A stretch of DNA of 64,000 nt from Pontederia crassipes (taxonomy: Eukaryota > Streptophyta > Magnoliopsida > Commelinales > Pontederiaceae): NCBI GenBank assembly GCA_030549335.1, contig CM060188.1, forward strand, positions 13,250,501 to 13,314,500, read 5' to 3'. This document shows positions 1 through 26,413 of the stretch, in pieces. The stretch's first letter is position 1, and each line of letters begins with the position of its first letter. The notes beneath the pieces are model-generated. The model was not told the origin of the DNA and made no database searches. It worked only from the letters and a program-made list of their open reading frames with translations. Position numbers and translations under genes: made by a program.

Positions 1-353
1 CTATCAGCCATTGTTAAGTTTTTTCCTGGCGCTTGAAATAAGTGCCGTGTTATATCTAGAAGATAAGCATCACACACTAGTGGATCCTTTTATTTTATTT
101 TTCAGTTGTGTCATGAACTGCTATAAATTTCCTCTGTCATTTTCTTGATTGTTTCAATCTTCATATGCAAATATATCATAGATATTGAAAATAATCTTTG
201 AGGTTAACTAAAGGAGATAGGTTAAATGATCATGATAACTAACTTTACCAGACTTTTTTGTTAGTTCTTAGCTGAAAATTGTGTTCAAAATTGGCATAAG
301 AATGGAGAATAATAATACATTTTAAATGACAGAAAACAAACTTATTGCATTTA

Positions 354-368
354 ACTTCTCAAAAAAAA
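354..368 (+). mobile_element. Ultra-short LINE-tail insertion with target-site duplication
   Basis: A short ACTTCTC plus poly-A stretch sits between two copies of the 16-bp sequence aaacttattgcattta (338-353 and 369-384). Poly-A plus a duplication of this length is the footprint of target-primed reverse transcription. The few bases before the A-run match the 3' end of the LINE family found elsewhere in the window (...TTCTCCTC-A(n)). Confidence 0.6.
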
Positions 369-538
369 AAACTTATTGCATTTAAATGACTCTTTAACAT
401 AATCCTGGTTTAGAATATTTGAATGCTTCATTATTATGAACTCCATCCCAGCTAATTTAGTGATAACTATCTAGAAAGGCAATGATATTAGATTGCAGTT
501 GTATGGAGGTCCTTCATAACCACCGAAGGCCATCAATG

Positions 539-558
539 GTTTTTTTTTTCGAGGAGAA
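539..558 (-). mobile_element. Ultra-short LINE-tail insertion with imperfect target-site duplication
   Basis: A poly-T run followed by CGAGGAGAA lies between gccatcaatg (529-538) and gccatcgatg (559-568), a 10-bp duplication with one mismatch. The GGAGAA after the T-run equals the reverse complement of the last bases of the local LINE family. Confidence 0.55.
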
Positions 559-750
559 GCCATCGATGATTTCTTGAAATGAAAGGACACATTAGCATTT
601 CTGTAGTTAAAAATCATACTTCTTACCATGGAAAATAAAGTAGGAAGTGCTAGCCATCTGTATATATAGTACTTATGGAAAATAAGCTCGAGTAGGCGCA
701 ACATGTAGAGATGAACAACAAATATTCCTTCTACAGATTATAACAAAAAG

Positions 751-925
751 ATTTTTTTTTTAGGAGAAAAAGGATGGCCACCAAATTTTATACTTGCCAC
801 CCATGTATATATAACTATGGAGTGATCAAAATGTACAATTGTGTGCCCTCAAGAAAAGGGTGGCAAAAAATGAAGAGGTGTACATCAGCTATCCAAAACT
901 CCACTCCCGAAAAAAAAATGGAAGG
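751..925 (-). mobile_element. 5'-truncated LINE, 3' end only
   Basis: A T-run followed by AGGAGAAAAAGGATGGCC and then a TATATATAACTATGG block matches in order the 3' end of the LINE copies at 2617-3945, 22115 and 41434. Only the last 170 bases or so of the element are present, so it carries no coding sequence. The 5' junction is approximate. Confidence 0.7.
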
Positions 926-1439
926 CTTATCATATTAACTATGATTGGCAACTAGAACACATTTGATGGCATACACACGACCTAAACTATACTGAGTTTT
1001 TAATTTAAACTTCAAGTTATTGCATATGTCTCTTAAATTGAAAGCTTTAAAAGCATAGTTGAACTCCGCAATGCAAGACATCCAAATGAGTCGAGTTCAC
1101 TATAGTCTTTCTTGAGCAGTGCAAGTTTCTGAGTCAAGCAACAAAAAAAGACGTATAAGCAGAACTTTCTATTATCGCTTTCACACAGATAAATGGATGT
1201 CCTAATTGTGAGCTTTAGAAAGTCAATGTATAACAGTTTCTAGCCTTTTTTAATTCTTGTAAATGCTTATAACAGTAAAATGCAACATTAGTAAGTTTGG
1301 AAAGGATAAAATAGAGAATGTAGGCATAATTCAGAAACCAACATAGTCTTTTATGTGCTCATAGTGCAACGAACTACCTTGTGCATGGAGTTCACAAGAT
1401 TTTGAAAGTGAAGGAATTGAAGACCTTGAGTTCACACTG

Positions 1440-1530
1440 GGAAAGGCTATTGGTTAGCTCAGTGGTTGCTCCAGCAACAACAAAGTTTACTCCATTCTGA
1501 GCCCAAGGACCCCGAATAAGGGCTCAATAG
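1440..1530 (+). repeat. Possible tRNA-derived SINE fragment
   Basis: TTGGTTAGCTCAGTGG near 1450 fits the pol III A-box consensus of tRNA-derived SINEs. A convincing B box is not seen downstream (only a weak AGTTTACTCC). It is not a foldable tRNA gene. Tentative. Confidence 0.3.
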
Positions 1531-1782
1531 CTTATCTTTAGAGATTTACCTGCCAGGTCGATCAATATCAGAATCCCCAACATTGAGGTTGAGCAAGTAT
1601 CATAAATAAATTAACGAATGATAAAAAGAACACACACAAATGAAATCAATGGACAACCAGCCATCACAAGAGAAAACAGTAGTCTTGTGGCACTTCCAGC
1701 AGGTGGGTTGAGATATACGCCAAGTCCTGCCATAAGCCACACAATGTCAGAGTTTGAGCCTCCAAAGTTGAATATGATACAA

Positions 1783-1793
1783 ATTTTTTTTGA
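1783..1793 (-). mobile_element. 11-bp LINE-tail insertion with perfect 12-bp target-site duplication
   Basis: ATTTTTTTTGA is bracketed by two identical copies of aatatgatacaa (1771-1782 and 1794-1805). Nothing but the T-run and two further bases of an element remains. Confidence 0.55.
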
Positions 1794-2446
1794 AATATGA
1801 TACAATTGGATTAGCATATGGGGTAGATTGGCTAAAAGTTGAACAACTAAGAAATATGGAAAGAATTTGGGCTTTATAAAATGAAAAGAGGACTGGAGCC
1901 GCCACTCCTTTAGCCATACCCTTCCTACAACACCCCCTCCTAAAAGAATGTGGACCTCACTCTCGTCTTTGCACTGGTAGAAACTATAGTCTCAAGAAAA
2001 TGAGAAGGTGTATGAACGCTGCTTACTCTAAACGCATCGGCAAATATAGAAAGGGAAAAGAAGACTAAACAACTTTCAAATGATTCTTTATGCCACTGAG
2101 AAAAGTGTAGGTCAAACTTCCCAAAATAGACATCAATAAAAGTAACCTGTCATGCTCACTTCAGAAAAATAACCAACATCAGTCTCTAGGTTTAAACAAA
2201 AAGGACTAGCCTCTACACAATATATTTTATAATATAATACAGATCAGTTTCAATTTGCATTTGTGGTGTTAGCCAAGAAGCAGAGTGAGACCTTAATTGA
2301 CATAATCTTATTTTTCTCAAGCTTTGAGCCTGGCATATAAGATTTATAAGTAGGTGTGTTCACAAGAAAGAATCACCAATCATGTCTTCTCTGAAGGTGT
2401 TATTGCAGTATTGCACGTTTCATCAGAACCCATGTTCTTCCACACA

Positions 2447-2616
2447 ATCTGAGGAACAAAAACACTAGACTAACTAGTCTAACAGCTATTCTTTATGTTA
2501 ACAAACTAATTAGCTTAACAATCACCTAGAATACAGAAATAACATAACAAATTGACAAGTATATGAATCTGAGGAACAAAAATACTAGACTAACTAGTAT
2601 CACAGCTATTCTTTAT
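2447..2616. repeat. 120-bp tandem duplication interrupted by a LINE
   Basis: A unit beginning AATCTGAGGAACAAAAA is present at about 2447-2566 and restarts at 2567. The second copy runs about 50 bases until the LINE insertion at 2617. Its remainder (CCTAGAATA...GACAAGTATATGAAT) reappears at about 3946-3989, on the far side of the LINE. About 25 bases of the unit are missing at the junction. Confidence 0.75.
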
Positions 2617-3945
2617 GTTTTTTTTTTGAGGGAAAAAAGGATGACCGCCAGGTTAGGTGGTTGTCATCCGGTATATATATAACTATGGGATGAAAATGAT
2701 ATACAAGTGTAAGCTCTCAAAGTGAGAGCAGAGCAAAAGCAAAAGTATATCAACTATCCAAAACTCCACTCTCGAAGAAGGAAGGAGATGTGGTGTACAA
2801 TACGCTCAATGTGACATCGCTCCCCACAAAAAATCATCCGGTTACGCTGAAGCCATAAGGCCCAGGAACTGGCCAAAAAAGATGCTAGTGGCGCTCTCCA
2901 TCTCTGTCTCTGCCGTGTCAATGCTCGAAACGACTGCCATAGGGCCTGAGAGTCTGGGGAAAGGACCCCCAACGGCCATCCTCTGGCAGATGCCTCGTGC
3001 TATCGGGCACTCAAAAAATAGATGGTCAACGTCCTCCTCTGCCTCGCCACACAAAATGCAAGACGTGTCCGTGTGGGGTGCCCAGCGTGCCCTGTATATC
3101 CTGGTGAGAAGCCGGCCCCGCCGCATAAACCAAGCGAAGATCTTGACTTTCAGCGGTATCCGTGATCGCCAAATGAGCCTCCAATCTGTCCAAAACTCCT
3201 CTGGCGCCAAGTCTGGAAGGAACATGATGTATAAGCTGCGTGCTGACCATGCCTCCGATAGCCATACCCATCTGTCAGGTCTGGAATGGTCGGGACGGTA
3301 GGGGGCTATCCTCCGATGGAGCTCCAGAAGCTCGGTGATGCGCTGGTCCATGAGGGCTGATCTAAAGAGAGGGGTCCAGGATCCAAAGCCGACATCACCG
3401 GCCTCAGACCATGTCTCCGCCACTGTCGCATCAGGATGTGCTGCCAGAGCATATAGGCGGGGGAAAGCCTCTGCGAGGGGAATCCCTGGGAACCAACTGT
3501 GTTGCCAAAACGAGAAAAGCTCTCCTGTGCCGAGAGATGGTGTCATGAGCGGGCGCACCCCGTGGACACAGAGCTGCCACTCCCCTCCAGAAGGATGAAG
3601 CCCCACGGGGCAATATCGATCTCGTCCCCCAAGATAGATCACGCCCGTAGCATGTGAAGAAAACCAAGCGCCATAAGCTGTCCTCAGGACCCATGATCCG
3701 CCTGACCCACCGAGCAAGGAGAGCCCAGTTGGTGCAGCGGAGATCTCGAACTCCCAGTCCACCCTGAGAGGTGGGGCGACAGACACCGCTCCATGCAACA
3801 AGATGAACCCCTCGTCTATCAGATCCGCATCCATCTACTCCTCAGAGAGTTCATACGCCTGATAATCTGGGCCAGTGCGTGAAGAACCGTCATATAGTAT
3901 GTCGGGAGCGCCGAGAAAATGGAGCGTAGCAGGATGAGCCGGCCA
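2617..3945 (-). mobile_element. 5'-truncated L1-type LINE carrying the C-terminal part of ORF2
   Basis: On the minus strand it reads from the end of the reverse transcriptase (GGRLILLRSIFSALPTYYMT, the conserved block after the catalytic fingers) through a roughly 330-residue frame (2842-3834). That frame ends in a zf-RVT domain with CILCGEAEEDVDHLFFECP. A 3' UTR follows, ending in TCCTTTTTTCCCTC and a poly-A that is poly-T on the plus strand at 2618-2628. The catalytic half of the reverse transcriptase, the endonuclease and ORF1 are absent, as expected for 5' truncation. The ORF2 remnant is split over two frames near 3830. It interrupts one copy of a 120-bp tandem duplication and appears to have removed about 25 bp of target. 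Confidence 0.85.
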
Positions 3946-4364
3946 CCTAGAATAGAGCAATAACATAATAAATTGACAAGTATATGAATATGCCCTATTT
4001 CCAGACAGGTCATCTAGTTGTCCACAATGGATTTTGTAGTAGTATGCTTTACAGTGGGAGATATCACCTTATAAATAGCAACATGTTGTGAACATCAGAA
4101 AAGCACATAGGAGTGGATGATCTGATACAAGACAATCTCCAAATGCAAAAGGAAAAGGGAAAGTTAATTCTTCTCAAGAAAAGAAAGAGACAATAATGTA
4201 CTGAGCAGTATTTCAAGTACCAAAAGCAACAGCTTAAAAGAAAACTGTTGAAACTGTATATGATTCAATGGCCTAAAGCCTAGAAGAAAAGCACGAGTTT
4301 CCTAGAGTTTTCCAAACGCCTTGCAAAGGAATGGGAGAGGTTGTGGTGGTTCCTGCATGTTTAT

Positions 4365-4378
4365 TTATTTTGAGGTTG
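4365..4378 (-). mobile_element. Short T-rich insertion with perfect 17-bp target-site duplication
   Basis: TTATTTTGAGGTTG is bracketed by identical copies of ggttcctgcatgtttat (4348-4364 and 4379-4395). The insert fits a decayed LINE tail (T-run then GAGG), but it is less typical than the other short insertions. A plain tandem duplication with 31-bp period is the alternative. Confidence 0.45.
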
Positions 4379-4538
4379 GGTTCCTGCATGTTTATCATTG
4401 CAGAGATTTATTGCAGTTAAGGTGCAAGTCGATATTGATGGTTATGCTCTCGGATGAAAAACTCAAAAAATAATGTGAAGTAACCATTCACATATTTGTA
4501 CCTGAATATCGCCAAGGTAGATACCAGAAACCTTGATG

Positions 4539-6743
4539 TCACCAATAATCCTTACAAGAGCAAGATCCATCCTTGAAATTATGAAACCTATTAGCATCTC
4601 TCAAAACAATTTCTCTGCCGGTTATTTTTGTTATTAACTTAATCACAGAGTGGCAATCCCCACAAACCCGTAGATTCTTCATGACACGTATTGGCATCCC
4701 TTCGGGGACCTTTAATAAACCAAATGCTACAGCCAGTCTCTCACTGTGGTACCGTAGATTATGAGATTTTTGTTCCTCATCAACATCATGGAGAACGAAG
4801 GCACCATCTGGAGAGTAACCTGCTTCCATCAACAACCCATCCAATTGTTCCAGCATGCTAATAATAGCTCCATGCTCAGGATGAGCTAATATGTCACCAG
4901 AGGTGAACATATGCATCTTCTTTTCATATTCAATCCAGCTACATCCTGGGGACTTACTCACCTTCCTGGAGCTCATAATTTTCCTCAACCTTGCAACATC
5001 TTCCCATCTTCCACTTGACGCATAGATGTTAGACAGCAATATGTAAGGCCCAGCATTTCCAGGCTCCAAAAGCAAAAGTTTGTTTGCAGCAATATCTGCA
5101 ATTTCTGCATTCATGTGTGTCCTACAGGCACCTAACAAAGCACCCCAAATTACAGCATCAGCTTCCATGGGCATACTTTTAATCAAATCAAATGCTTCCA
5201 TAACATGGCCTGCTCGACCAAGTAAATCAACCATGCAAGCATAGTGTTCAACCCTTGGCTCCACAGAAGAACTTGAGCTAATTGATTGAAATATTTCCCG
5301 TCCTTCTTTGATCTTTCCCGTATAACTGCAAGCCAAAAGCACCCCAATGTAAGTTATTTCATCAGGCACCATGCCAGCAACCTGCATGTCATGGAAGACA
5401 CACAAAGCTTCCTCTCCCAAGCCATGCTGAGCGTAAGCAGTAATCATCGAGTTCCACATTATGACATCCTTTGATTCAAACCAGTCAAAAACTTCTTTAG
5501 CCTTCACAAGCTCACCGCATTTGACATACATAGTCACCAAAGCCGAGACAACATATACATCTTCATCAAAATGAGACCTCAAGATCATTGCATGAACCTC
5601 CCTGCCATGATCGAGAATTGCCAGGCTTGCACAAACTGCAAGAACGCTGATCAATGAAGGATGAGTCGGAGGCACCCCGCTCATTTGCATGGCTAGGAAG
5701 CAATCCAATGCTTCAACTTCAAATCCATTCTGCTCATAAATCTTAATAATTGCGCTCCAAGATCCATCATCCCTCTCCACCATCTGATCAAAAATCTTCC
5801 TTGCATCCTTCAACATCCCATGCTGCCCGAACCCCAGAATCATTGCATTACAGGAAACAGTTGATTTTTCCGGCATTGTTTGGAACAACTCTACTGCATC
5901 TTCAATACGCCCTGACTGAGTGTAACCAGTAAGCATTGCAGTCCAAGAAACTTCGTTTCTCTCGGGCATAACCTCGAATAACTTCCTGGCAACATCAACC
6001 TGTGAGTTTTGGGCATAGCCGGATACCATGGCCGTCCAAGAAATGACATTCCTGCGGGGCATCTCGTCAAACAGCTCCCTCGCCTCAGCCGTGCGGCCAG
6101 CCATGCAGTACCCAGATATCATGCTGGTGTACGTGACAACATCGCGCTCAGGCATGTCGTCGAAGAGCCTCCGAGCATCGTCTACGCGACCCTCCCGAAG
6201 GAGACCGCCGAGCATTACAGTCCAGGAAACGACGTTGCGTTCGGGCATGCGGCGGAAGAGCCGCTCCGCCTCGGCGACTTCCCCAGCTTGAACGTACCCC
6301 CGGATGATGGAAGTCCAGGAGACGACGTTGGGGCAAGGGACGGAGTCGAAAACGGCGCGGGCGTCGACCAGGCGCCCGACGCGCGCCAGGCCGGAGATCA
6401 TGGCGTTGTACGAGGCGGTATCGCGGAGGGGCATACGCTCAAAAAGCTGTCGGGCTCTGGAGGGTTGGCGGTTGTGGAAGTAGCCGGCGATGAGGGCGTT
6501 GAAGGAGATGACCGTGCGTTCGGGCATGGCGTCGAAAACCCGCACCGCGTCATCGATGCGTCCGAGGCGGGCGTAACGGTGGATGAGGGAGTTCGCGGAG
6601 AGGATGGCCGGCGTCGCAGTGGTGCGAAGGCGGAGCGGTGGGAAGCGCATTTCGTCTAACTCCTTACAGTGCTCCCGGACTCTGGAGTGCACTTTGAAGT
6701 TTGAAGGCGCATTTTGGTTATTGCACGTGCGAAAGACTATCAT
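4539..6743 (-). CDS. DYW-class pentatricopeptide repeat protein (At1g09410/At1g56690-like)
   Basis: This is an intronless 734-residue frame. Organellar PLS-class PPR proteins bind single-stranded RNA through the repeats and direct C-to-U editing through the C-terminal DYW deaminase domain. About a dozen repeats run from roughly residue 45 to 500; several carry the MPERNVVSWT-type ending. E/E+ segments follow, then a DYW domain over about the last 95 residues with the deaminase signature HSE (in HSERLAVAFGLL), CGDCH, and the terminal CSCKDYW. All zinc-ligand motifs are present, so the protein looks active. The longest start is at 6743; the methionine at 6650 (MRFPPLRLRTT...) gives a more typical arginine-rich organelle presequence and lies where GC-rich coding sequence begins. 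The sequence resembles my recollection of Arabidopsis At1g09410 along its length. Target RNA site is unknown. Confidence 0.95.
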   Translation of the reverse strand: MIVFRTCNNQNAPSNFKVHSRVREHCKELDEMRFPPLRLRTTATPAILSANSLIHRYARLGRIDDAVRVFDAMPERTVISFNALIAGYFHNRQPSRARQLFERMPLRDTASYNAMISGLARVGRLVDARAVFDSVPCPNVVSWTSIIRGYVQAGEVAEAERLFRRMPERNVVSWTVMLGGLLREGRVDDARRLFDDMPERDVVTYTSMISGYCMAGRTAEARELFDEMPRRNVISWTAMVSGYAQNSQVDVARKLFEVMPERNEVSWTAMLTGYTQSGRIEDAVELFQTMPEKSTVSCNAMILGFGQHGMLKDARKIFDQMVERDDGSWSAIIKIYEQNGFEVEALDCFLAMQMSGVPPTHPSLISVLAVCASLAILDHGREVHAMILRSHFDEDVYVVSALVTMYVKCGELVKAKEVFDWFESKDVIMWNSMITAYAQHGLGEEALCVFHDMQVAGMVPDEITYIGVLLACSYTGKIKEGREIFQSISSSSSVEPRVEHYACMVDLLGRAGHVMEAFDLIKSMPMEADAVIWGALLGACRTHMNAEIADIAANKLLLLEPGNAGPYILLSNIYASSGRWEDVARLRKIMSSRKVSKSPGCSWIEYEKKMHMFTSGDILAHPEHGAIISMLEQLDGLLMEAGYSPDGAFVLHDVDEEQKSHNLRYHSERLAVAFGLLKVPEGMPIRVMKNLRVCGDCHSVIKLITKITGREIVLRDANRFHNFKDGSCSCKDYW

Positions 6744-6787
6744 TTATGGAGTATATTTATGGAGTATGGAATAAAATTTTACTCACA

Positions 6788-6826
<39 letters not shown>

Positions 6827-8186
6827 TTTGATTTGCAAGCTTGGGTTCACGTGTGTTCAGATTTGCTTAAGAAATTGTTCAAATTAATTGATTTTTTCGT
6901 AAAATAAAACATGATATATAGTCGTTACCAGAGAAAAATATTTGACATATTTTTATGATGTTATATGGCATGTTACCAGGTATAATAATAGGTGGTTGAG
7001 ACAATTGGATAGTGAGATTATATTCTCATCTTAAATTGGATTTTCAGATTCACCATTTTATTAGTATTCGTGCATATAATTTTCGTTTGAATATGATCTC
7101 GATTCAAAAAATAATTAAATAAAAGTCTTAAAAGATATTATTATTTATGTTATTAATTTTTTTGTGTATAATTCGAAAATTTTACTAAGGTACATATATA
7201 TACATGTCTGTGGAAGAAGTCAAATGACATGAGCTAACTATTATTTAACTTATTCTTAAAATAAATTAAATTATAATAGTTGTGATATGAAGTAATAGAT
7301 AAATTCGTGATTTATAAATATTTTTAAAATACTTTTTCGTACAAAAAATCTATCACTATATAGTTACTAATTTTATTATTTATTTATAGTATGTATATAT
7401 AGTTATGAATATGACATTATAGAATGTACAATGTTACATTTTGTAGTAATACATTATACATCAAATTTAATGGAAAATAACATACGTTGCCAATAATATA
7501 TTTGGAACTTGAAAATATAAAAAAACAATACAACATAAAGGGTGTGCATCATTGTGATTTGAATGTAATTGACTTATGGACAACTCAAAACTTTATAATT
7601 CATATTCAAATAAATGTTAATTCATCATTTGTATCAATCTATATAAAAGGAGAGACAACATATGCCAATTGATAATTTATCATTAAGCCACATTTGAGTA
7701 AAACTAATAAATTTTAAATTTTTGAGAATTGATATAATCACTTCGAAATTATTTGGTCTTGTTCTTAAATAAACAGTTAAACAACATTTTTTTTACATGT
7801 GAATCCCACGAGAACAATAAAAAACTAGAGCAAATGAGTTCGTTTTGAAACTTGCTTGCTCAATGGGACAAAGGTAATCAAGAAATAATTTTTTTTCACC
7901 CAAACAGTCCTTCGGGCATAAACAATATGGACAATAAAAAATAATAATTCATATCAATCTATCAAATATGATTTTATTGAAAACTTATCAAATTTTAAAA
8001 ATTGAGAGGTTATAACATAAAAAATAATATGAAAAGAGGGGAAAGGCTAAATCACGTGCAATGCTGAGAGTATAAATGGTAATAAGGTTGAATCACGTGA
8101 TACGAGTCGAAGTCGAAGCCTGTGATGAGTGATCCACAATCCAATAATAATATTGTAATAAGTTTCAATATATTATTTGTATACTC
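6744..8186. other. AT-rich spacer upstream of the PPR gene
   Basis: No gene is seen. An (AT)n microsatellite lies at 6790-6823, within 150 bp upstream of the PPR start, in its presumed promoter. The rest is AT-rich, low-complexity sequence ending at the left flank of the solo LTR. Confidence 0.6.
6790..6823. repeat. (AT)n microsatellite
   Basis: About 17 TA units. It lies just upstream of the PPR gene and could serve as, or obscure, its TATA element. Confidence 0.9.
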
Positions 8187-10894
8187 TGTAACGCCCAACA
8201 AAAATCGAAGGAATTTGAAAACCAATTCGAATGCAAAAATATGGAAAGAATTCTAATTTCAAATTATAATCGGAATAAAAAAAAGAAAAAGGAAAGAAAC
8301 GTAAAACACAAATCGGGAGAGAGATCTCCTCCCCCAATGTGCCTCCTCTGATTGGTCCTCTATGTCGGTCAGTAGGGAGACTATAAGAGGGCACGAGGAG
8401 AAGTCCTTGTGCCCCTTTCGACCTCACCCTACCAGCCGTCGCTCCACCTCTGCTCCTTCTTCATTCTCTCCGGCGAATGATGCATCGAAGGAGCGACAGA
8501 GCAGGGACAGGGGCGATTCAACCTTCAGAGCACCACAGCCCTTCCTCGACACATCAACGCACTCGTGAAGGCTAGCCACACTCCCCGTCGGCCAGGGACG
8601 ATCGGAGGCCGAGAGGACGACGACATTGACTCCGACGAACTCAAACTATCCTATACGTTTAATCCCATAGGCAATAAATTATCGATCATATAATGCATAT
8701 AATGATTCCACAGTGATCTGGAGATTATAGACTACACTTTTCGTATTGTAATCGTCATGATCCGATGGCCGAAAGTCGACCGAAAGAAAAGAAATCGATC
8801 GACGCCTCTATTCTGGCGTAGAATTGGTCGACCGATTCTATATGATTGGTCGACCGGTCGGAAGAAACACATGTATGCTATTATGATCGATCGACCGATT
8901 TCATCAGGATGGTCGACCGGTCTGATGCACAGGTATATCGTGATGATCGGTCGATCGATTCCATAAGAACGGTCGACTGATCCGATGCACAGGCATGCCG
9001 ATACGATCGGCCGACTAGTTCAGTGAGAACGATCAACTAGTTCGGGAGGGTGCCGGATGCGATCACGATCGATCGACCGATTCAATAACGGTCGACTGAT
9101 ATAACATAAACGGTCGACCGATCCCGTAGGAACGGTCGACCGGTCCAAGGACCGAGAGAATTTCAAACCGATTTCAAAGTACGAACACTTGTTCGATCCG
9201 AGTTGAATCCTGACTCGGTTCGAGTCACGTACATGGATTTTAAATAGAAGACTTGATCCAGATTTCTCTTATACAGTCCGGGCTCTATTATAAAAGATGT
9301 AAATGCCTTTTGGGCCCGAAATTCATAATTGGGCCCCAACTTTTGTTAGGCCAACTTGAGGTCATGTCCAATATAGTAAAGAATGTAATGAGACTTTCTT
9401 TTTAGGAAAAGGGATCTGACTTTATCATTTTCTCTGATTCATGATTTCTAAATCCCACATGTAGTTAACAAGATAAGTAAAGTAAAGATGAAACCATGGA
9501 ATTGCTATGTGCCGCCTCAAAGTATAAATTACAAAGATCAACATGTGTGTATTAATAGTTTCACCATGGTCAACGTCATGAGGTGAGTATTAATAGCCCC
9601 ACTGTGACTGTATTACAAAGTAAAGATCAAGGCATAATACAGAGAATGATAAGTAGTTAAGCTGAAAAGACAGCGAACCTACATATTTTTTATGACCACT
9701 GCTTCTGAGATACATGCCATCTTTCATCTGTGTCTCGAATAAGGGTGATGCATTGACACACTCCTTCCCCAAAGAGACATAATTTCATAGTATCGAGGCA
9801 GAGAGACATGTAGCTTAGCTGAGGAGACAATGAACCTACAGATTCTTAAATGATCACTATTCCTAAAGTACAAGTCATCTCTCACATGTATTCCGAAAAT
9901 GGTGATGTATTGACACACCCCTTCTCCAAAGTGGGCATACTGGCTTACAAACTCATAAAGGCATCTCTGGTATCCCAGCCTAATAAAATCGAGCTCACAT
10001 AGGACAATGAACTTCAAAGACTGTATAATAATGTAAAAAATGTAGCACAACTCATGGTAAAATAAAAACATGATAAAGTAAAGTATATCACAGTAAAGTA
10101 TTGCATTGCAAAATACAGTAAAACATGACAAAGTAATGTATGACAAAGTATAACAAATAATAGTAAAGTAATGTATGACAAAGTACATAGTATGACATAG
10201 TAAAGACAAATTAAAGTTACAAGAGAGAATACAACATGAATATAGTAAAGAATAAAGTATAGACATAATGATTCATTGCCTTATGCAATCAAAGCATTGA
10301 TTATAATGAGAAAATAAGAAATTATTGTTCATAGCAAAATATGTTATTACTTATCCGTTATTGATTCAAACATGTTTGATTATTAATTTATAGCCTATGA
10401 ATCTATTGTACTGGATATTTTTGTTCACGGGTATTCGATGCCCCTGTATTTGAGATTTTGCAGGTGAGAATCTTGTTTAGAGAGAAGTGATGGAGGACGC
10501 AGTGCTCAAGAGTTATTGCACATGACTCATTAAACTCAATAGTATCTTTGCTTTTATCTACATTATTTGAATAAATCATCGTTGCACCAGATGGATATTA
10601 TGGTCTTTTTCGCTATAATCAAATATGTGGCCATTGTTGAGATTTTATTGGATACTATTGTCATTGTTCACTTCATTGTGAATTGCATTAAGTGCTCATT
10701 GTCCTTTGATATTCCAACGCTTCTGCATTTACAATAGAATTTTAGGTTATTTTATTATTATATTCATTGTCACATATTAGATTTGTTAAATGATTAAGGT
10801 CATATTATGATCAATAGTATAGCAGGTAGTGTAGCGTTTCTGAAATCAACCTGACTGTATACATAACAGAAGGATGAATTTTTGGGGCGTTATA
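8187..10894 (+). mobile_element. Solo LTR of a long-LTR retrotransposon (fossil)
   Basis: A 2.7 kb sequence starts TGTAACGCC and ends in the near-complementary GGCGTTATA, and is flanked on both sides by the 5-bp direct repeat tactc (8182-8186 and 10895-10899). No gag, pol or primer-binding site lies inside or beside it, so it is best read as a solo LTR left by recombination between two LTRs. It contains a palindromic GGTCGACC array (8770-9145), a duplicated block of about 175 bp (9620-9930) and an AAAGTA-rich simple array (10060-10260). The LTR length suggests Ty3/gypsy (inference). A relative lies at 28582-30905; the two are well diverged, so the insertions are not recent. Confidence 0.8.
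8770..9145. repeat. Array of GGTCGACC palindromes within the LTR
   Basis: At least fourteen sites of the form GGTCGACCGRT(T/C) or close variants recur in two alternating contexts, giving a dimer period of roughly 60 bp. Each site is self-complementary around GTCGAC. The same kind of array occupies the corresponding part of the LTR at 28582-30905. Confidence 0.8.
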
Positions 10895-15248: not shown

Positions 15249-16133
15249 GGCCGCCCGAGCGTTCTCTTTCCTAATCCCCTGAATAAAACCCAGAACGATA
15301 CCGAGTTTGGTTCTAAAAGGCTTTTTTTTCCTGGATTGCAAATTTTGACCATATCCATTTTATTATTAACTCGATTGAGCAAACTTTTCCATTCTCAATT
15401 CACTTTCGAAACCAGATTCCTTTCCGAATAGATTAAAAAATAAATGTGCATACGGAATATAATATATTAAAATAATAAGAAATTAAATAATGTAAAATAG
15501 ATCACAAAATTGTACTATATTTATTCAAATTGATTACAAGTGCTTTTTATGCTAACTTAAATGTTATTATTATTATTATTATTATTTACTTCTATGATTA
15601 TAAGACAAGTTCGCTAACTTATTTTGCATTTTTGTATTAATGAAATTTGTTAACTTCGGTCACAAATGAGTGGCCGTTTTTACTTGTATAATATCATTTT
15701 ACTAAATAAAGGAAGATACTAATTGAGCTCTTGAACCATTTACGTAAAATGTCACTAAGATAGTTTTAAGTAATTCCGTAATCACGATTCCTTTTTAGTT
15801 TTTCTGCCACATTTCGAAGAGGAAAAAACCAAAATTTATTTATCGTAATAATCTCGTATGAAAATGAATCGTCAATACGAGAGATCCGTTTTTCTTGCTA
15901 CAGTTACAGTTGGTAGAAATATATATTTTTTTGAAAAAAACTATTTTGAACAATTGGTTTGAGAAAGGGAAAAAATGTATGTATAATACATCGACTAGTA
16001 TTTATGCCGAATAAATTTTCATTAATAAACATTTGTATTAATTGTCCAATAAAGGGAAAAAATGGGGCGTTTGCCATTAAACCACTTGATCGCCTGCCAA
16101 GGAGTGAACCGTGAAGGCACTGCAGACAAACAC
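15249..16133. promoter_or_regulatory. Divergent intergenic region between the DUF952 and PII genes
   Basis: About 0.9 kb separates the two start codons, and it must contain both promoters and 5' leaders. It is AT-rich, with an (ATT)n run near 15568-15587. No unambiguous TATA element stands out for either gene. Confidence 0.5.
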
Positions 16134-19100
16134 ATGGCAGCCGTCCTCGTGTCGTCCGCCGCCGCCAGGCCGATGGCTCTCGGCCCCTTTCGCCCCCGTC
16201 AAGTGGAGCCTCTCTTCACGCTCCCGATTGCCACGTCCCTTGCCTCCAAGGGGAGGACGCTGTCGCCAACCCTGGTGAATCCGAGGCTGAAGCAGGCCGC
16301 GAGCCCTTCGCTGCGGCGCCCAGCGATCAGAGCTCAGAGCTCTTCTGGTAAACACCTGAAAGTACACATCTTTTCTTCACAAGAATCCAAACTCGTAAAG
16401 GAGTGCTCATTGTTTTCGTTGGTTGCCTCTGCATTGTCCGAAAGATTATGTTCCCGATGCGAGCTTTTACAAAATTGAAGCCATTTTGAGGTAAAGTTTG
16501 AACCTCTGATATCATTCGTCTGGTCACCGTCTTTGTGAAGATATATCGTCTGGGTGCACTAACGGTGCTGTAAATTTTGCATGGCTGGCGTTCTTTTGGG
16601 AAAGGAAGGCCGTGGCGACTTTCACATGTTTCTGCGGTAGGTAAAAGAAGACATTTTTCTGTAGTCGCTGGCTGTAGGTCTACACAATTTTCATTGGAGT
16701 TATTTCAGATCGAAACGGATGATTAAGATGCTCCTCTGATGACTAGGCCTTGCTGCAAATGGGAATTCGGGGAGTTACTGTCTCTGACGTTCGAGGATTT
16801 GGCGCTCAAGGTGGCTCGACAGAAAGGCATGGAGGTATGTTATTTTGGTAGCTGTCGCCCCCGGATTCATGTATGTTCATATGAGAAACATTCGCTTAAT
16901 GTTTTAGTTGATTGTGATTGCTTCTGGCCTTAAAAATCTCACAAACTTCGGCTGCGTTAAAAGTTTTTTACGCTATTTGGTGTTTCGAAGTTGTTCCATT
17001 GCTGTCTTGGAGTTGGTGTTAATTTTTCTTTTCTGGATTACCCGAGAGCGATCAGTGTTTAAAGGTTAACCCCTCCCCGCTCAACAGTGTTTTTGGGGGT
17101 TTGAAGCTCTCATATCTCAGCCCTTAACTTAGTTTACTTAGCAGCTGATCCAACTCTCATTGGTGTATTTTGTGTTAATTTTGGTTTCCTGCGTGGTAGT
17201 TGATTTAATACGTTATAGATATGGTTCTAAAAAAACATCAGGCATATGTGTGTACACACATATAACGGTTTCAGAGATGTGTTTACTGTGATACACTACG
17301 GGTTCTTGTATGTATTTAAAAAAAATGGGATATATTCTTATTCCATCTTGAGTTGAATTGAAGAGAATAAAGTCTTGAAAGATGATATTTTGTAACTAAA
17401 GGTGTAGTTATAAATACTTGATGATCGGTCATTGCAATAAACAATATAGAAATATTATACTAACATGTGGTTGAAAAAAAATGGAAAAGTGACATATGAT
17501 TAAAAAAAAGGAAAAAAAATTAATATTTGCAGGAATATAATTCCTCTGTCAAGGTTAGCGTTTTCTATGTTGTTTTATGGAAAAAACAAAGTGTTGACCA
17601 AATTAATCTTATTATGGCTAATACCTAGTTGTATTTTCTGAATAATGAGTTCCACTATTAACTTTGCAACCCAAGGAACCCACAAACTTATGTTACACAT
17701 TCTATTACCCTTTTTTCTCTGGGACAAATGTAATGTGCAACACATATAGTATACATGTACACATTCCTTAACCCCTTTTTTCTTATTGCTATCATTTGCC
17801 TTTTCTACATAAACAGTGGTTTAGTTACTAATACTGTTTCTTTTTGCTATCTGTACCATTTGACGTGGTCTTTAGGATCTGAGTTTGAGGAAGACAAGTT
17901 CATTAATAAGATTAAGATGGAAATAGTTGTCTCCAAGGACCAGGTACATTGTCTTTGAGTTATGTTCTCCATGCCTATGATTGTTTCTCTACATCTTCAA
18001 TGATCATGGGAAGAGACTTTCTTTGATTGCCAACTTTCAGAGGAATCTGTATCCTGTACACATGCAAAAATGCTTAGCCGTTTGGATAAACATTTCAACT
18101 TTTGTTGTAGCCACAAATACATGGTAAAATTCATAGAATCATCCCTGCAGCTAGCTGAAGGGATTATAAAGAGCTGGACTACAGGTGGTATTTGGAAAGT
18201 TTTGGAAAGTAAGTAAAATTTTGGTATGGATAAGGTTATCTGACTATAACCACTTTCTCAACTTAATCACTAAACTTTGTTAAACTGAAAGGTCATCCGA
18301 CCACTACATGTTTCAGACATGACCATCTCGTCTGGCTATTGGTTTCCTAGTTACAACACCGACGGGGCTGACACACACCCCATTTACCCATTTTCTCTCT
18401 CTGCCACATCGCCAATTTTATTGAAATGACATTTTCCCTCTCTTATGTGTCTATTTTTTCCTTTAGGTTATTGTCATGTTCCCATTAGTTCCACCAGTTC
18501 CTTTTTTTTTTTGGAGAAAGATTAGTTCCACCAGCTGTGAACTGAGATTTGGGTGGTGAAGCTGAATTCTAGCCTGATTATGAGATTAAGAACCACATTA
18601 GATGTCATCATTATATATAAAAATTTAGCATGAAGAAGATATGATATAGTTGAAGCCATCATTTTTCTCACAGATTTCGAACTATGGGATTCCCTCTACA
18701 AGGTTAGGGTTCAGCGTTTCTTGATGAGCTCTGACTGACGGAATGTGGCTGGATTGCTGATGTCCCACTATGATGCAAAGCATTTTTGTTGGAGATCTGA
18801 CAAGTGATCGGGACTAAGGAGATGAAGCTTTTGCTGCTTCCATTTCACACTCTCATGTGGGCTGCCATGATAGGGAGCACTGTCCTCCCAGTCTTCCCCT
18901 TCCTCCTCTGACTTCTTGTTCTCAAAATTTTACTTCTCCTTCGAGCCCAAGTACCAGCTAAGTTCTGCCACAAAGGAACTCCAGCTGAGGTGGCAGCACT
19001 AGATCACTATGGCATCTGCTTCCTTCTTTGTGGAACTGGAAGTTTTGATAGGCACAGATGTGAAGTTCTCGACAGCAACACCAAGAACAGCAGCATCTCC

Positions 19101-22100
19101 TCAGTCATTCTCCTTCCTTGACAAGATAGCCGATGGATCTCCTTTCTTCTTGTCATTGTCTGCAGTGAGAAAGGAGGTGGCCATGCTCTTCTTTGGGGTT
19201 GGAGCTGCGATAAACACATACTGCTACCACTATTTTTCGATCTGGCGTCTTGATTACCTTCTTCATATCTCCACTATCTTGTCGACATGGATGCAAAATG
19301 GAAGAGCAACGGTAGGGGGTGACAACGGACGCTGCAACTTCTTCTTGCTCAAACAAAGGGTGCATGATGAATTGAAAATAATAGACACGTAGAGAGCCAC
19401 AGTTAGAGCATTTGAAATGACTCGCTTCACACCCCGATGCCCTAGCGACCAGCTCCACACCCCGCCTCCGACAAAGCCTGCCGGCAGTGCCACTTTCCGC
19501 CTCCGGCGACCCCTGCCGGCGGCGCCATCGTCACCACCGGCGGCGCCATCGTCACCACCGGCGGCGCCATCGTTACCACCGGCGGCGCCATCGTCACCAC
19601 CGGCGGCGCCATTGTCGCCACCGGCGGCAGGACCACGATATCGTGATCCCTAGCGACCCGCTCCACCGCCGGAGGCGCCATCGTCACCACTGCCAGGAGG
19701 ACCATGACGCGTCGCTGCCCCCTGCACTTGATCGATGGCTGGACCACCTTTACTTGAGCTCGCGAAACCTGCCCCCACCGCCGACCGTCTTCGCATTGCT
19801 TCAGGTGCCTGGAACGCGGTCACTTCACGGGAGACTGCCCTGGCCCTCTTCGATGCCTCTGGTGTAGGGGTGAGGGCCACCGGCAGTCGCTCTGCCCCCA
19901 AACTCTGTTGAGGCGAACAGTCCCCAGACCTGCACACTCCTCCCCCCCTGTGATCGATGCTGCGGCGACTCCCACCATAATGTTACCATGGTTGCTGGAG
20001 ATCCAAAGAGGCGTAGACATCCTCAGCGACTGTGTCGTTGGCGAGATCAGCAGCGTCCCCCAGAGTCAGCGGCTCTTCGTTCAACCGTTATCGCCGGAGT
20101 TGGCGATTTGCCTCCTTTTCACCTCAGCCGAATTTCCTCGTCCTTATGGCTGCTCATCCCTGGGTCTGTGCAGCAGCGCGACCATCTGCTGGCGACCCAA
20201 ACTGCTGTGTCGCCGGGCACCATAGTCCGGTGGCGTCACTGGAAAGATGACGATGGAGCAGCAAGGGCGCCACAAGGGATCCGCCGGTCAGTGGACATTC
20301 AGGGGTTGCCTCTCCATCTCCAGCGGCCGGAGATCGCCCAGGCGGTGGCGCAACTAGGGAACCCCATCTTCATCGCCCTTCCGGCGCTTGGCTCGCTGGA
20401 TCTGTCCGTCACCTCCGTCGAGGTTGACCTGCGCCCTGGAACCAGCATTCCATCGTCACTGGTCCTCATCGTGGGTGTTGATAGCTTCCTCGTCCAGATA
20501 CGGTACTCCGAAGGGTCTGCGTCATGGGCGGAGGTGCTCGCCGATCATCCGCCGTGGTCGCCTCAGTCGTCTGCCATCAGGTCGGTCGCTGGACAGCCTG
20601 GCCGGACACAGCACGTGCGGACGGCACGAGGCAGCCATACTTCATTTCAAATGACCGACCCTGCTTTGAATCCTCAACTGCTTCCCATCACCACTGTTCC
20701 AATACATAATCCCCTCCACCACGGAAAACCGTCGGCAATCCTCCAGCAACCAGACACCTCCAACCCGCCTGCAACTCCCCCACCGCCACAGCAGCCGCAC
20801 CACACCAACCATGCGCCTTGAGCACGGCTGTCACGCGCTGCGGGTTCCGGTCACGTGGATGACAGGACACAGGACACCCTCGGAGCTGCATCAGACCCTC
20901 CCATCCCCCTCTCAGCAAATTTCGCCCCATTCCCCTGTCCTTGGCTAGACACCTTTAGTCTCGCCGCTCGTATGTTTCTCTCTGCCCGTGCTCACCGGCA
21001 TCCCGGTGGTCATCCCGCTGTCGACCACACCCACCGGCGATGATCTCACAGCCCCTCTCTGCCACCAGCGCCGTCGGCTTGCTCAGCATGTTACGCCACC
21101 ACCACCAGCAGGACAGCAGTCACCATCTTCGCCGCCCCAGCAGCCCATGGGAGGTGCATCACAGAACGGGCCAGCTTCGCCGGATGCTGACGGGGATCAT
21201 GGGGCGAATGAAGAGTCTGACCCTGCTGCAGAATCTACCGGCCTCCATCATACCCGCAGGTGGGCACTAAAAGGTGTGGCTTTACACCGGCCCCTATAGT
21301 ACATGCTCACCCACCCTAGGAGCAGCCACAGGAAATGCCCGGCACCGCGACCATTGGAGGGACAGCAGCTGCCCACGCAGTTGTCGTCGCTATTGCTGCC
21401 AATGAGACATCAGCCGTCCATGCAGTCATCACTGCCACCGCCCCAGCAGCCCGTGACGGGGGTACACCGCTGACCACGCCGGACTCGCTGGATAGTGAGG
21501 ACAGGGATGATGGGGTGTGTCTCCTCGCCGGGTGGTCGGATGAAGAGGTTTGCCTAGTTGCGGAGGCTGCCGGCCTCCGCCACACACGTCGGCAGCCACG
21601 GGCAAAAGGAGTGGCCTCCCAACAAGGGGATGGTAATCACATGGAAGGCGACGGATAAATGGACGGTGGATGTGCTCCCCCTTTGAATCCGAGCACCCGA
21701 CGACTGTTTGGGGGTCCAATGATCTCTCATCACCGGAAGACTGTTTCATAGTTGGCACGGAGGTGTATGGTAATCACTCCAAGGTTTAGCACAATAGAGA
21801 TTGAGGTGGAGGACGCCATTTGCGACTTTTTGGCTGGTGCCCGGGCCATTTTGGCACCAGTGCAGCAAACCTACTTTTGGGTGGGGAGAGATGCCGATTT
21901 GCTTTTGGGTGGGGAGAGATGCTTGGTTGATTGTTTTTTGTACTCAACATCTTCTTTTTGGGATCGGGGCCTTGCTTGATGAGATATTTTCCTTTTGTTG
22001 CTGCGCTCCCTTTGAGAGCCTACACTTGTACTCTTTACTTTCATTCCACAGTTATATATATTTGGATGACACCCACACCTCTGTTGGCCATCCTTTTTCT

Positions 22101-24223
22101 CCTCAAAAAAAAAAAAGACACATACAAGGGAGAAAATGCCATTTTAATAACAACTAGACGTGACATAGAGAGAAAATAGGATCCATGGCAGGCATTACAG
22201 CATGTCGACTGAAACCAACGATAGGTGACCAAGATTATCATGCCTAACATTTTAGTAGTTGGATGACCTAATAAAGTTTAGTGACATAGTTGGAAAAGTG
22301 AATACAGCTAAATGACCGAACAGAAAGTCCACTAGAAAAGTAAATCATGTCCATTTCAATGATTGTCTGCTCCGATGTTTATGAGAATGTTCTGGTGCAA
22401 CTTTTGTGCACTAAATTTGGCTCTCTGTACCAATTTGCTTAATATTTTATTGGATTCTAGTGCCTGTTTTGCATGCACTTAGCTGTTTTTTTCTCATAAT
22501 CCTTAGGTTGAAGCAGTGATTGACAAAATAATTGAAGAAGCAAGAACTGGGGAAATTGGTGATGGCAAGATATTCTGTAAGAGCATTTTTTTCCTATTTA
22601 CTTTTATCATTGATAATAGTATATGAATTTTGATTGAGAAAATCATAGGCAATCATAAGATGCGGAAGGCAGCTGTTGATGAATTTCCTTTATTTAAGTG
22701 TTCCTCAACTTGGCAATGCACAATTGTTAGCCAAACATAAAGGGTTCTGTATATTCAGATCTAAAATCCTTTTTTACTGATGAGGGAAAAGATAATTTAT
22801 TACTTTTTTTTTTGAGAACGGAAGGACAACTACCAGAATCTGTAGTCATCCAGCTTTATTGATGAAAGATAAATTGAAAAAATGGTCATAAGTACAAAAG
22901 AAAAACAAAAATGAGATTGCCATGATAACTGAATCTCCTGCCCATAGTTTCATAGGATTTCTGGCATGTGCAATAATTTTATCCGAGTAACACCGTTCAC
23001 CCAGAAAAAAAAAAGAAAATTACCGCATTTCTCTGGGACCAAATTGCCCAAAGAATGGCTAGATGTAGTACATGATGTCAGCGTGGGACATACACTCTCA
23101 CACCCTGATGCCTGCCATCAAGTCGCAGGGACTGCCAGAAGGATGCGCCAGCAATAGATCTAGCCATGTGCATTGGAGAGTCAACCATACCAACTTAGCC
23201 ACTTGACATGCAAAGAAAAGGTGGTCTGTATCCGCTGGAGCCAGCCCACACATGGCACAGTGCACCTCAGCGTAGTTTGCCACTGTAGTCTGTACGTCCT
23301 CGTGAGAAGTTTTCCTCGCTGAATCAACCATGCCAAAATTTGGACGTCCTGGTATGGGCTTATGCCAGATGATTCTACAATCAGCTTTTAAGTCATCATC
23401 TTAGAAACGATCCACCGCATCCAGGACATTATACATCTTCTAAAAGAGACTTCATTACTTAAATCAAATATATGGAAAGTTAAGACAGCTGATTAGCTGA
23501 TTATCACATCTTCCAAAATGCTTATCCGAAAATGCATAGATTTCATAGAACATCATGACGGCCATTTACCACAAATTCAGGGCATCAAACAAGTAGTAAA
23601 GATAGATAAATATGGACATAAGTTTGTTCTAGATGCATTGTTTTTCTGTATTGCTGTTTTTAATCCTGTTTCTTTCACTGTGCCTTCAGACATATAAAGG
23701 CTTGTACAATACATCATAAATGGTTTAATGGAATCTGAAAATATGGACTCATTGATTTATCTGTTGTTTTTTAAAATAACAACATTCTATATCTTATTTC
23801 CATGCAAGTAATCAAGTTCCGTTTTCTGCAGTGATACCAGTTTCAGATGTCATAAGAGTTCGCACAGGTAAGTGCACAATTATGTACCACTTCCCGATTT
23901 CATGTTACTTTTTAGAGTCCACTCTTTCACTTCAGGAGTTAGTTAGTTAAGCCGAATTCACCTATAATTGCTTAAGTTTCTGCTAACTTCATTGTCCCAA
24001 AACATAATCAATAAAGGTTTAGGATTATTAACATTCTGGTTAATCATTCTTTTTCCCCTAAAAAAAAGACTTACTCTTCAGCGAAAGGTATTGTTGCTGG
24101 AAAAATTGTGGCTCCATGCTATTAATCTTGTTTGTTTTCTAATTTATTTCAGGCGAACGAGGGGAGAAGGCTGAAAGAATGAGTGGCGGACGATCAGATA
24201 TGATTTCTGCATCATCCAATTGA
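16134..24223 (+). CDS. GLB1: Chloroplast PII nitrogen regulatory protein, eight exons
   Basis: The exons are 16134-16347, 16445-16490, 16609-16636, 16747-16834, 17876-17943, 22507-22576, 23832-23867 and 24153-24223, all GT/AG, totalling 621 nt (206 residues). PII is a trimeric sensor of ATP/ADP, 2-oxoglutarate and (in most plants) glutamine; in plastids it relieves arginine inhibition of N-acetylglutamate kinase and restrains acetyl-CoA carboxylase. The first 70 residues are a Ser/Ala/Arg-rich transit peptide (MAAVLVSSAAARPMAL...). The core then shows YVPDASFYKIEAILRPWRL, the T-loop GFGAQGGSTERHGGSEF, and the B-loop signature TGEIGDGKIF. RTGERGEKAERM and a short C-terminal extension of the kind that forms the plant glutamine-binding Q loop end the protein. 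Exon 3 is only 28 nt. The start at 16134 is chosen over an in-frame ATG at 16062 because it begins a typical transit peptide. Intron 5 (4.6 kb) is swollen by nested transposons; intron 6 holds a LINE. Confidence 0.94.
18498..18520 (-). mobile_element. 23-bp LINE-tail insertion with perfect 14-bp target-site duplication
   Basis: TTC plus a T-run and GGAGAAAG is bracketed by two identical copies of attagttccaccag (18484-18497 and 18521-18534). The GGAGAA following the T-run matches the reverse complement of the LINE family's last bases. This is the clearest of the ultra-short insertions. Confidence 0.75.
18535..19382. other. Unidentified segment inside the TIR element
   Basis: GC content is higher than in surrounding intron. 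Open frames occur on both strands (for example 19009-19392 on plus), but I recognise no domain and no splice structure. It may be internal transposon sequence or a captured host fragment, as Mutator-like elements are known to carry; nothing in the sequence decides this. Confidence 0.35.
19397..22115 (+). mobile_element. ORF1-only LINE ('half-LINE'), non-autonomous
   Basis: A GC-rich element with an ORF1-type region. It starts near an ATG at 19417, has Pro/Ala heptads encoded by a 21-bp minisatellite (about 19516-19630), and then a double CCHC zinc knuckle at 19797-19905 (CFRCLERGHFTGDC and CLWCRGEGHRQSLC). A long frame at 19988-20821 contains DIQGLPLHLQRPEIAQAVAQ, the GLP-x-H core seen in plant LINE ORF1/DUF4283 proteins. 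No endonuclease or reverse transcriptase follows. Instead it passes to a 3' UTR (GAGAGCCTACACTTGTA, TTATATATATTTGGATGAC, CATCCTTTTTCTCCTC) and poly-A. That 3' UTR is the same as in the RT-bearing copy at 2617-3945. The ORF1 region is spread over more than one frame, so this copy is decayed. Imperfect flanks agacacgtagagag (19383-19396) and agacacatacaagg (22116-22129) look like its target-site duplication. Confidence 0.7.
19516..19630 (+). repeat. 21-bp minisatellite within LINE ORF1
   Basis: Five near-perfect units of a 21-bp sequence built on GCGCCATCGTCACCACCGGC encode a PAAPSSP-type heptad in the ORF1 frame starting at 19417. Being a multiple of three, unit changes keep the frame. Confidence 0.85.
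22801..23440 (-). mobile_element. 5'-truncated LINE in PII intron 6
   Basis: A T-run at 22804-22814 is followed by GAGAACGGAAGGACAACTACC and, in 23098-23331 on the minus strand, a zf-RVT domain (CAMCGLAPADTDHLFFACQV). Its tail has the same layout as the other LINEs but is more diverged. It is antisense to the PII gene. The 5' junction is approximate. Confidence 0.7.
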
Positions 24224-26413
24224 GTAGATATCTTATGTTCTAGTTGTACGTGTTATGTCATTGATTCCCAATAATTTTACCTGCGTCTTGCTTCATTGCA
24301 ACTTGGTATGTATCCCAATGACAAAGGAAAAGACTGGCATAACTCTTTTTTTAAGGAGAAAACTGACGTAACTTGAATAAAGAAGGCAAGTTACTTTTAG
24401 TTGCTAATGTATCTGGATTTCAGAAATGAGTACATTCCATAAGTTTTAAGAGACAAAGGAATGCTGTGAAAAAAAAATCCTTTTAGCTGTAGGAAAATTA
24501 TGCTGTTGCATAGTCTCCTTGAGGGAGTAAAAGTGTTTATCTTGATATCTTAAAATGGCCAGTTTCTTCTTAGAGTATTTAGCCAAGAAATGTTTAACGT
24601 AGTAATTGTTAGATTAGGGAAAGAAATGCAGTGGTATCTGTATGATCATTATGTACTTGGAAGATCAAGCATGGATAACAATATGGTAATAGTATTAGTG
24701 CCCAATCAACAGCATGCAAAGCATGCCATGTTGCAGTTGAAGCTAAAGTGATTAATTGTTTATTGCCTTTGAACTCAGATACGCCACTTGTTTTAGACTG
24801 AGATGCAGATGCATAGGTCTGAGACACCACACTGATCCTCCCATGCTGCTGATTATGTGGATGCCAAAAGTACCAAATGCAAGAAAAAATATGTAAAATG
24901 ATAACACCTAATATACAAATATATATGCAAAAGAAAGCTCATATTTCTGTTTGCGGATGAATTACTTCCCTTTATTTCCCTTTCCTTCTCTAAAACAGCT
25001 ACTTTGCATCATATTAATCTTCTTTTGTCCCGTACTGTCATTTCTCCCATCTACAGCTCATTAATTTGAAACTATTTAATTTGGACCTGTTTGGTGGACT
25101 TTGTTTTTGCGCTGATGTATTCACATATTCTTCGTTCATGTTCTTACATATTTTTGTCATGTTGCTCCTTTACTTTTATCAGTTTCTACAAACATAAATT
25201 TTCTCTGAGCTTCACGTGCCATTGGCAATTTCAGTTGATATATATGGTTTTTCAATTTGTCACATTCTGTATAGGTCGCAAGTCAGAAGCATGATCATGA
25301 TCATCTTGTCATCCTTCTCTTGCATTGCCACAAACGTGACAATTAGATTATGCTTTTGTGTTGGCAGCCCATTAATCTCGTCTTCACTGTTTTTTTTTCC
25401 TTTCATATTTGTGCATGCTGTTTGCACTTTGCATTAGTTACTGTAATGAACTTTTGCATGGGTACCATTAGAGTCTTGAAATCTGTTGAGAACTCAACGT
25501 GAATCAGCCATCCATCATCGAAATTATGCCTTCTCACAGCAGTTCTATTCGGAATTCTGCTTCGGATATCTGTTTGTTCTTGTACTTTAACTGAAAAGTG
25601 GAGTCTGTTACAGAAATCTCTTGTTCACAAAGCGTGTGAATTCCTAGTTATGGAGAGGGCAAAAAATCTCCCTCATCTATATTTATCTCATTTTCAGTTC
25701 AAAGATATATCATGCATAAATTTGAAGCTTACTTCCTTTCCATTAGTAGTTATGAACTATTTTTTTACTCCCATGCGTGTCAGAATGAACTAGGAGAAAG
25801 GAAAGTGATCTATGCACCAGCTTCTTATATTTATGTATTTCATATTCTTTTTTACTGGTCCCCAATCTATGAATATTCATACTCTGATGCAGACATGAGA
25901 CCGTATTTAAAACATGCAAGAAGAAAACAATTCTTACGAATTGATCAACAGCATCATCGAACTCTTTTTTCTGTTTCTCCACAGTAGTCTGGTTCTTGGT
26001 ATGAGTATTGGAATGTAGAAATTTAATATATTCTGAACAATTTAAAGCATATCCTATAAGTGGTCTTATAATTTACTGTACCATTCCCTTCAACCGTTTG
26101 ACAATGGCGGGCAAAGCTGTGAAACAATTTTGAATCTCATAAGTTTTACTTTTCATTTTGTATATACTCATAGACATGAGAAGATCCTAATTGTAGAAGA
26201 TCTAACTGATTTTGAGCCTTTGACCTCATTTAGAAGGCAGAAGAAGAAAGAAAAAAAAAACATCTTATCCTCATCATTAAGAAACATGACTGGACCAGCT
26301 TTAGTTTTGAACACAAAGTGATCAGCAGTCCATAATGCTTTTTAGTTGTCTGCGTGGAACTCTTGTAATTATACGTACGTTGAACAAGCTTCTTTTAAGG
26401 TAGAAGTGATTCC
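24224..26413. other. 3' flank of PII and intergenic DNA
   Basis: The PII 3' UTR must lie at the start. A 17-bp LINE-tail insertion occurs at 24345-24361. No gene is recognised in the remainder. Confidence 0.5.
24345..24361 (-). mobile_element. Ultra-short LINE-tail insertion downstream of PII
   Basis: CTTTTTTTAAGGAGAAA lies between actggcataact (24333-24344) and actgacgtaact (24362-24373), a 12-bp duplication with two mismatches. The T-run followed by AGGAGAAA matches the LINE end exactly as at 751. Confidence 0.6.

Follow-up and report, generated by a model that had tools for sequence, protein, structure and literature searches.

Gene content and LINE copies of the analyzed region

The window, i.e., the whole stretch of 64 kb that was analyzed, was judged to be plant nuclear DNA from its gene content, which comprises a PPR-DYW gene, a kinase exon and zf-RVT LINE pieces. 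The following genes and longer LINE-related features were located.

4542-6743: PPR-DYW gene
42064-42480: kinase exon, with a kinase match
752-924 (upper border approximate), minus strand: truncated LINE copy with its 3' end at the T-run 752-761; blastn 71-75% to other copies
2618-3943, minus strand: truncated LINE copy of about 1.3 kb, about 23 bp of target lost; zf-RVT, E 4.4e-19
21952-22116 (upstream reach approximate), plus strand: 3' end of a LINE copy; blastn 71-79% to other copies
22804-23441, minus strand: truncated copy of a more distant LINE, ending in GTTCTC + A10; zf-RVT within 23101-23400, E 1.8e-07
24037-24067, plus strand: short LINE 3'-end piece, about 23 nt + A8; blastn 30 bp at 86.7% to the 41438 copy and 23 bp at 91.3% to the 752 copy
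41438-41773 (upper border approximate), minus strand: truncated LINE copy upstream of the kinase exon 42064-42480; blastn 75.1% over 342 columns to the 2618 copy

A preliminary description of this DNA had named long LINE ends at 751, 2617, 22115 and 41434. These are present as the copies ending at 752, 2618, 22116 and 41438, which show mutual identities of 71-79% in blastn, and a further end was found at 22804. When read on the A-strand, the ends are TTTTTCTCCT at 752 as well as at 41438, TTTTTTCCCTC at 2618, TTTTTCTCCTC at 22116 and CCGTTCTC at 22804, and in each of them an A-run comes next. The LINE identity of the family is backed independently by zf-RVT in two of these five longer copies (2618 and 22804), and a source LINE is at hand within the window. 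For the copy at 22804, a probable target-site duplication was detected (22787-22805 and 23442-23460, 16 of 19 positions matching). No convincing target-site duplication was found for the copies at 752, 22116 and 41438, where the best flank scores were 5.8, 8 and 9, respectively, and no flanking repeat was found in the flank test of the short piece at 24037-24067 (score 6).

The LINE copy at 2618-3943 interrupts the second of two tandem units of about 120 bp (2447-2571 and 2567-3992). The first unit aligns to both flanks of this LINE, positions 2447-2499 corresponding to 2567-2619 (50/53) and positions 2523-2571 to 3944-3992 (45/49), and from this alignment it follows that about 23 bp (2500-2522) were lost at the insertion point. 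The first unit thereby serves as a paralogous empty site for the long LINE copy within one window. Target deletions accompany 350 of 8673 calls of human insertions, by the counts given in PMC12016303.

Upstream of the LINE 3' end at 22116, an open frame at 19758-22116 contains two CCHC-like zinc-knuckle motifs that were recognized by eye. Six open frames between 19421 and 22154 matched 0 Pfam families and no reverse-transcriptase match was obtained in the tested frames; 19758-22116 is perhaps a LINE minus its second gene. A run of 21 G residues (41769-41789) is found about where the similarity of the 41438 copy to the other copies ends.

Short inserts between direct repeats

Five sites at which an A/T-run insert lies within direct repeats had been described for the window, and their structures are given below.

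Case 1, plus strand: insert 355-368, A-strand CTTCTC + A8 (A-run 361-371); repeats 338-354 and 369-385, 17/17, score 17
Case 2, minus strand: insert 543-558, A-strand TTCTCCTCG + A-run; repeats 529-542 and 559-572, 12/14, score 8
Case 3, minus strand: insert 1783-1793, A-strand TC + A8 + T; repeats 1771-1782 and 1794-1805, 12/12, score 12
Case 4, minus strand: insert 18498-18520, A-strand CTTTCTCC + A11 + GGAA; repeats 18484-18497 and 18521-18534, 14/14, score 14
Case 5, minus strand: probable, ambiguous insert 24345-24361, A-strand TTTCTCCTT + A7 + G; repeats 24333-24344 and 24362-24373, 10/12, score 6

Borders are shifted by a few bases from those described earlier where the A/T run can be assigned to either flank. 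The repeats are perfect in cases 1, 3 and 4, whereas those of cases 2 and 5 are imperfect. For case 5, an alternative layout exists in which the repeats are 24324-24344 and 24353-24373 (17/21, score 9) and the repeat includes the LINE-like bases. Inserts between repeats are secure in cases 1, 3 and 4, case 2 needs the LINE tail as support, and case 5 is ambiguous.

On the A-strand, the order of elements is identical in cases 1, 2, 4 and 5, namely repeat, LINE-end bases, A-run and repeat. One repeat copy abuts the LINE 3'-end bases and the other abuts the A-run, except that GGAA intervenes in 18498-18520 and one base (G) in 24345-24361; the GGAA that follows the A-run of case 4 counts against the LINE reading. 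The claim that four of the five cases carry the exact LINE end holds for TTCTC plus A-run, which is present in cases 1, 2, 4 and 5, but not for CTTCTC of case 1, which is close to the long-copy ends (CTCCTC, CTCCT, CCCTC and GTTCTC) yet letter for letter identical with none of them. In case 3, only TC precedes the A-run; this insert is not assignable to a LINE, and its assignment to the LINE family was rejected. The human L1 endonuclease prefers to nick at TT/AAAA. On reading by eye, no TT/AAAA-like nick site was apparent at the insert sites. The inserts of about 14 to 23 bases are nearly all tail, and repeat screens would miss them.

Direct repeats with other filler also occur. A possible sixth insert at 4365-4378 has a 17/17 repeat, but its longest A/T run is 4, and it was rejected as a LINE insert. 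Since GAGGTTG, which lies ahead of the left repeat (4337-4343), recurs inside the supposed insert at 4372-4378, a tandem duplication with filler accounts better for this site. At 44749-44791, a 13-bp insert (A-strand CACAGAAAAAAGT) with an A6 run lies between 14/15 direct repeats. Perfect 14-bp repeats at 48503-48546 enclose a 16-bp insert devoid of an A/T run, which looks like a duplication with filler, and at 21874-21922 repeats of 21 bp are 7 bp apart.

Flanking repeats compared with controls

As a null, left and right flanks of different A/T runs were paired in 6000 swaps, some of them between neighboring runs. Scores of at least 12 were obtained in 3 of these controls, scores of at least 8 in 1.2% and scores of at least 6 in 8.0%. 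The 106 A or T runs of at least 7 in the window gave 17, 14, 12, 9, 8 and 8 as their best scores. For the score of 17 (case 1), no control fell between 17 and 21 and a single one lay above, at 22. The score of 9 belongs to run 24346 and arises from the 17/21 repeat through the LINE-like bases, whereas the layout described earlier for this site scores 6; the second score of 8 belongs to run 27517, which is devoid of a LINE tail. With 106 runs tested, cases 1, 3 and 4 stand alone statistically, whereas cases 2 and 5 do not. Regarding the flanking duplications of the inserts with LINE-end bases, those of 355-368 and 18498-18520 are beyond the null and that of 543-558 is weaker.

When exact repeats of at least 11 at a spacing of 8-40 bp were counted, with low-complexity repeats left out, 19 pairs were obtained in the window (several of them in tandem arrays), 3 of which enclose an A/T run of at least 7. 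The corresponding means in block-shuffled windows (n = 60) were 0.93 pairs and 0.017 pairs with such a run.

LINE-like bases next to A-runs

On the A-strand, 8 of the 106 runs (361, 540, 752, 18502, 22105, 22804, 24346 and 41438) are preceded by TTCTC at a distance of no more than 9 bases, compared to a mean of 0.94 runs and a maximum of 4 in 300 rounds with shuffled flanks. These eight runs are composed of four long LINE-copy 3' ends and the four short inserts of cases 1, 2, 4 and 5. If A-runs of at least 5 are considered, ten TTCTC sites are found, i.e., the same eight plus 7728 and 46962 (A-runs 5-6), at which neither a LINE nor a flanking repeat was listed.

The association of this tail with flanking repeats was first noticed in the same window, and the tests that follow it therefore overstate certainty: after removal of the long copies and with case 5 left out, a score of at least 8 was obtained in 3/3 TTCTC runs versus 2/98 others (p = 6e-5), and with both cases 2 and 5 left out in 2/2 versus 2/98 (p = 0.0012). 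Inclusion of case 5 at a score of 9 gives 4/4 versus 2/98 (p = 3.5e-6), a figure that uses the layout of case 5 (17/21) that argues against its LINE reading. With a looser tail definition, which covers 10 of the 106 runs, long copies included, and misses the 22804 copy, scores of at least 8 were reached in 4/10 versus 2/96 runs (p = 0.0006, or 0.004 without case 5) and scores of at least 12 in 2/10 versus 1/96 (p = 0.023).

Nine-base words that match AAGGAGAAA at 7/9 positions or more account for only 246 of 63,991 words (0.38%) in the window, so that the resemblance of the left flank of 24345-24361 to the LINE tail is itself unlikely to be due to chance. At run 52235, GGAGAAAG is located near a T-run and the flank match is only weak and gapped. 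The link to the LINE is good for 355-368, 543-558 and 18498-18520, and fair for 24345-24361.

Origin of the short inserts

The inserts 355-368, 543-558 and 18498-18520, and probably 24345-24361, are likely to be LINE-derived and to reflect target-primed reverse transcription that stopped 6-9 nt beyond the poly(A). This origin had been proposed in the preliminary description for all five cases; it is the best reading for the first three of these inserts and a fair one for 24345-24361, but 1783-1793, where TC is all that precedes the A-run, falls outside it for lack of LINE bases. In such an event, plant L1-type LINE machinery would nick the target and reverse transcription would be primed on the poly(A) tail of LINE RNA, to stop once this tail and a further 6-9 nt from the 3' end of the LINE had been copied. 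The second strand would then be cut 12-17 bp away and sealing of the ends would leave a target-site duplication around an insert of 14-23 bp. The anatomy of the inserts and their excess over chance in the window are observed, whereas the mechanism, the use of LINE RNA and not of a different RNA with the same tail as template, and the reason for the stop are inferred.

The inserts look like 5' truncation at its limit, that is, like extreme members of the class of 5'-truncated LINEs that arises by a known process. As in the 5'-truncated L1/LINE insertions described in the parts of PMC2912911 and PMC4859970 drawn on here, the 3' end and the A-run are kept and the 5' part is gone, with duplications of 12-17 bp in our cases; unlike in those insertions, merely 6-9 nt of the element are left. 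With regard to short L1 insertions, poor processivity is considered an unlikely cause and conflict with host factors is suspected (PMC4859970), and abortive intermediates are described as healed by end joining (PMC2912911). Extending these two accounts, an early cut-off followed by end joining may have produced the short inserts studied here. A tail-only insertion is also known from the human NF1 gene, where a poly(T) insertion of about 120 bp, new in one patient, was interpreted by its authors as a possible Alu, L1 or processed pseudogene after severe truncation (PMC3219598, as far as its account of this insertion goes). Our inserts resemble it in being tail-only, and differ from it in that they measure 14-23 bp and contain a small number of element bases indicative of a single LINE.

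Alternatively, staggered double-strand breaks might have been filled in, with duplication of their overhangs, and rejoined via A/T-rich filler; we consider this explanation, in which retrotransposition plays no part, unlikely. Duplications with other filler do exist in the window (48503-48546, 4337-4395 and 21874-21922); 4337-4395, with its repeated GAGGTTG, fits a break-repair duplication with filler, 24324-24373 possibly does so too, given that its repeat crosses the supposed LINE tail at 17/21, and the insert with the A6 run at 44749-44791 has no LINE tail. Among rice insertions of 10-1000 bp, tandem and partly tandem duplications are frequent, and these are credited to break repair (Vaughn and Bennetzen, 2014, as summarized in PMC7407515). 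Like our cases, those in rice are short direct duplications, some with added bases; a LINE end plus A-run as the added bases, found here, is unmentioned in the portion of PMC7407515 drawn on. However, break repair fails to predict that the filler consists of LINE-end bases followed by an A-run in LINE order, as observed for four TTCTC sites out of eight (the remainder are long copies), and by eye the duplications do not extend into the insert at 338-385 and 18484-18534.

Less likely still is an origin from a SINE, or from some other RNA with the same 3' tail as the LINE, mobilized by the LINE machinery. On the basis of 6-9 nt, a LINE and a non-autonomous element sharing its end would be indistinguishable, but all copies with this end that were recognized in the window by blastn and Pfam are LINEs. 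Least probable of all is chance, by which some of the common A/T runs would have similar flanks: a score of 8, at the frequency in swapped flanks, is expected about once in 106 runs (run 27517 being of this kind) and 24345-24361 in its earlier layout reaches only what 8% of controls reach, but scores of 17, 14 and 12 are far out, two of these sites also carry the LINE tail, and for 355-368 and 18498-18520 chance is already very unlikely by the flank-swap control.

Frequency and size of the LINE insertions

All five cases are located in the first 25 kb, and no further case of a tail plus A-run of at least 7 is found in the rest of the 64-kb window. This corresponds to three or four inserts per 64 kb, in contrast to the five in 25 kb that had been stated. 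Including 24037-24067, ten LINE insertions are recognizable in the window, four of which (one ambiguous) keep less than 10 nt of the LINE. If truncation were evenly spread over a 1-kb range, the probability that four copies out of ten keep no more than 10 nt would be 2e-6, and for three of ten it would be 1e-4. With a log-uniform spread, four of ten are ordinary (0.26), and the window therefore provides no proof of a separate class. It is conceivable, albeit doubtful, that LINE retrotransposition in this plant frequently aborts at a separate point immediately beyond the poly(A) junction and that inserts of less than 10 nt form a class of their own, which would add duplications of 25-40 bp to introns and spacers unseen by repeat maskers.

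A sugar beet LINE family is reportedly heavily truncated, going by the title of Wenke et al. 2009, and would likewise be a plant LINE with heavy truncation. Among the titles listed in our literature search, none named plant LINE inserts of such a size, an absence that says little given the thin coverage of subscription journals. If such a class were frequent genome-wide, LINE activity would be undercounted, as at least one published screen, of human insertions, took those of at least 50 bp (PMC2912911, in the part drawn on here), and some of the short duplications in plants that are attributed to break repair would be due to retrotransposition. The proportion of tail-only inserts relative to longer ones would reveal where reverse transcription most often breaks off.

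Additional repeats in the window

Clusters of imperfect repeats of the palindrome-like CGGTCGACCG are found at 8823-9140 and 29147-29360, and an array of imperfect repeats that contains GATATAGTGACACGAGG is located at 63659-63875.
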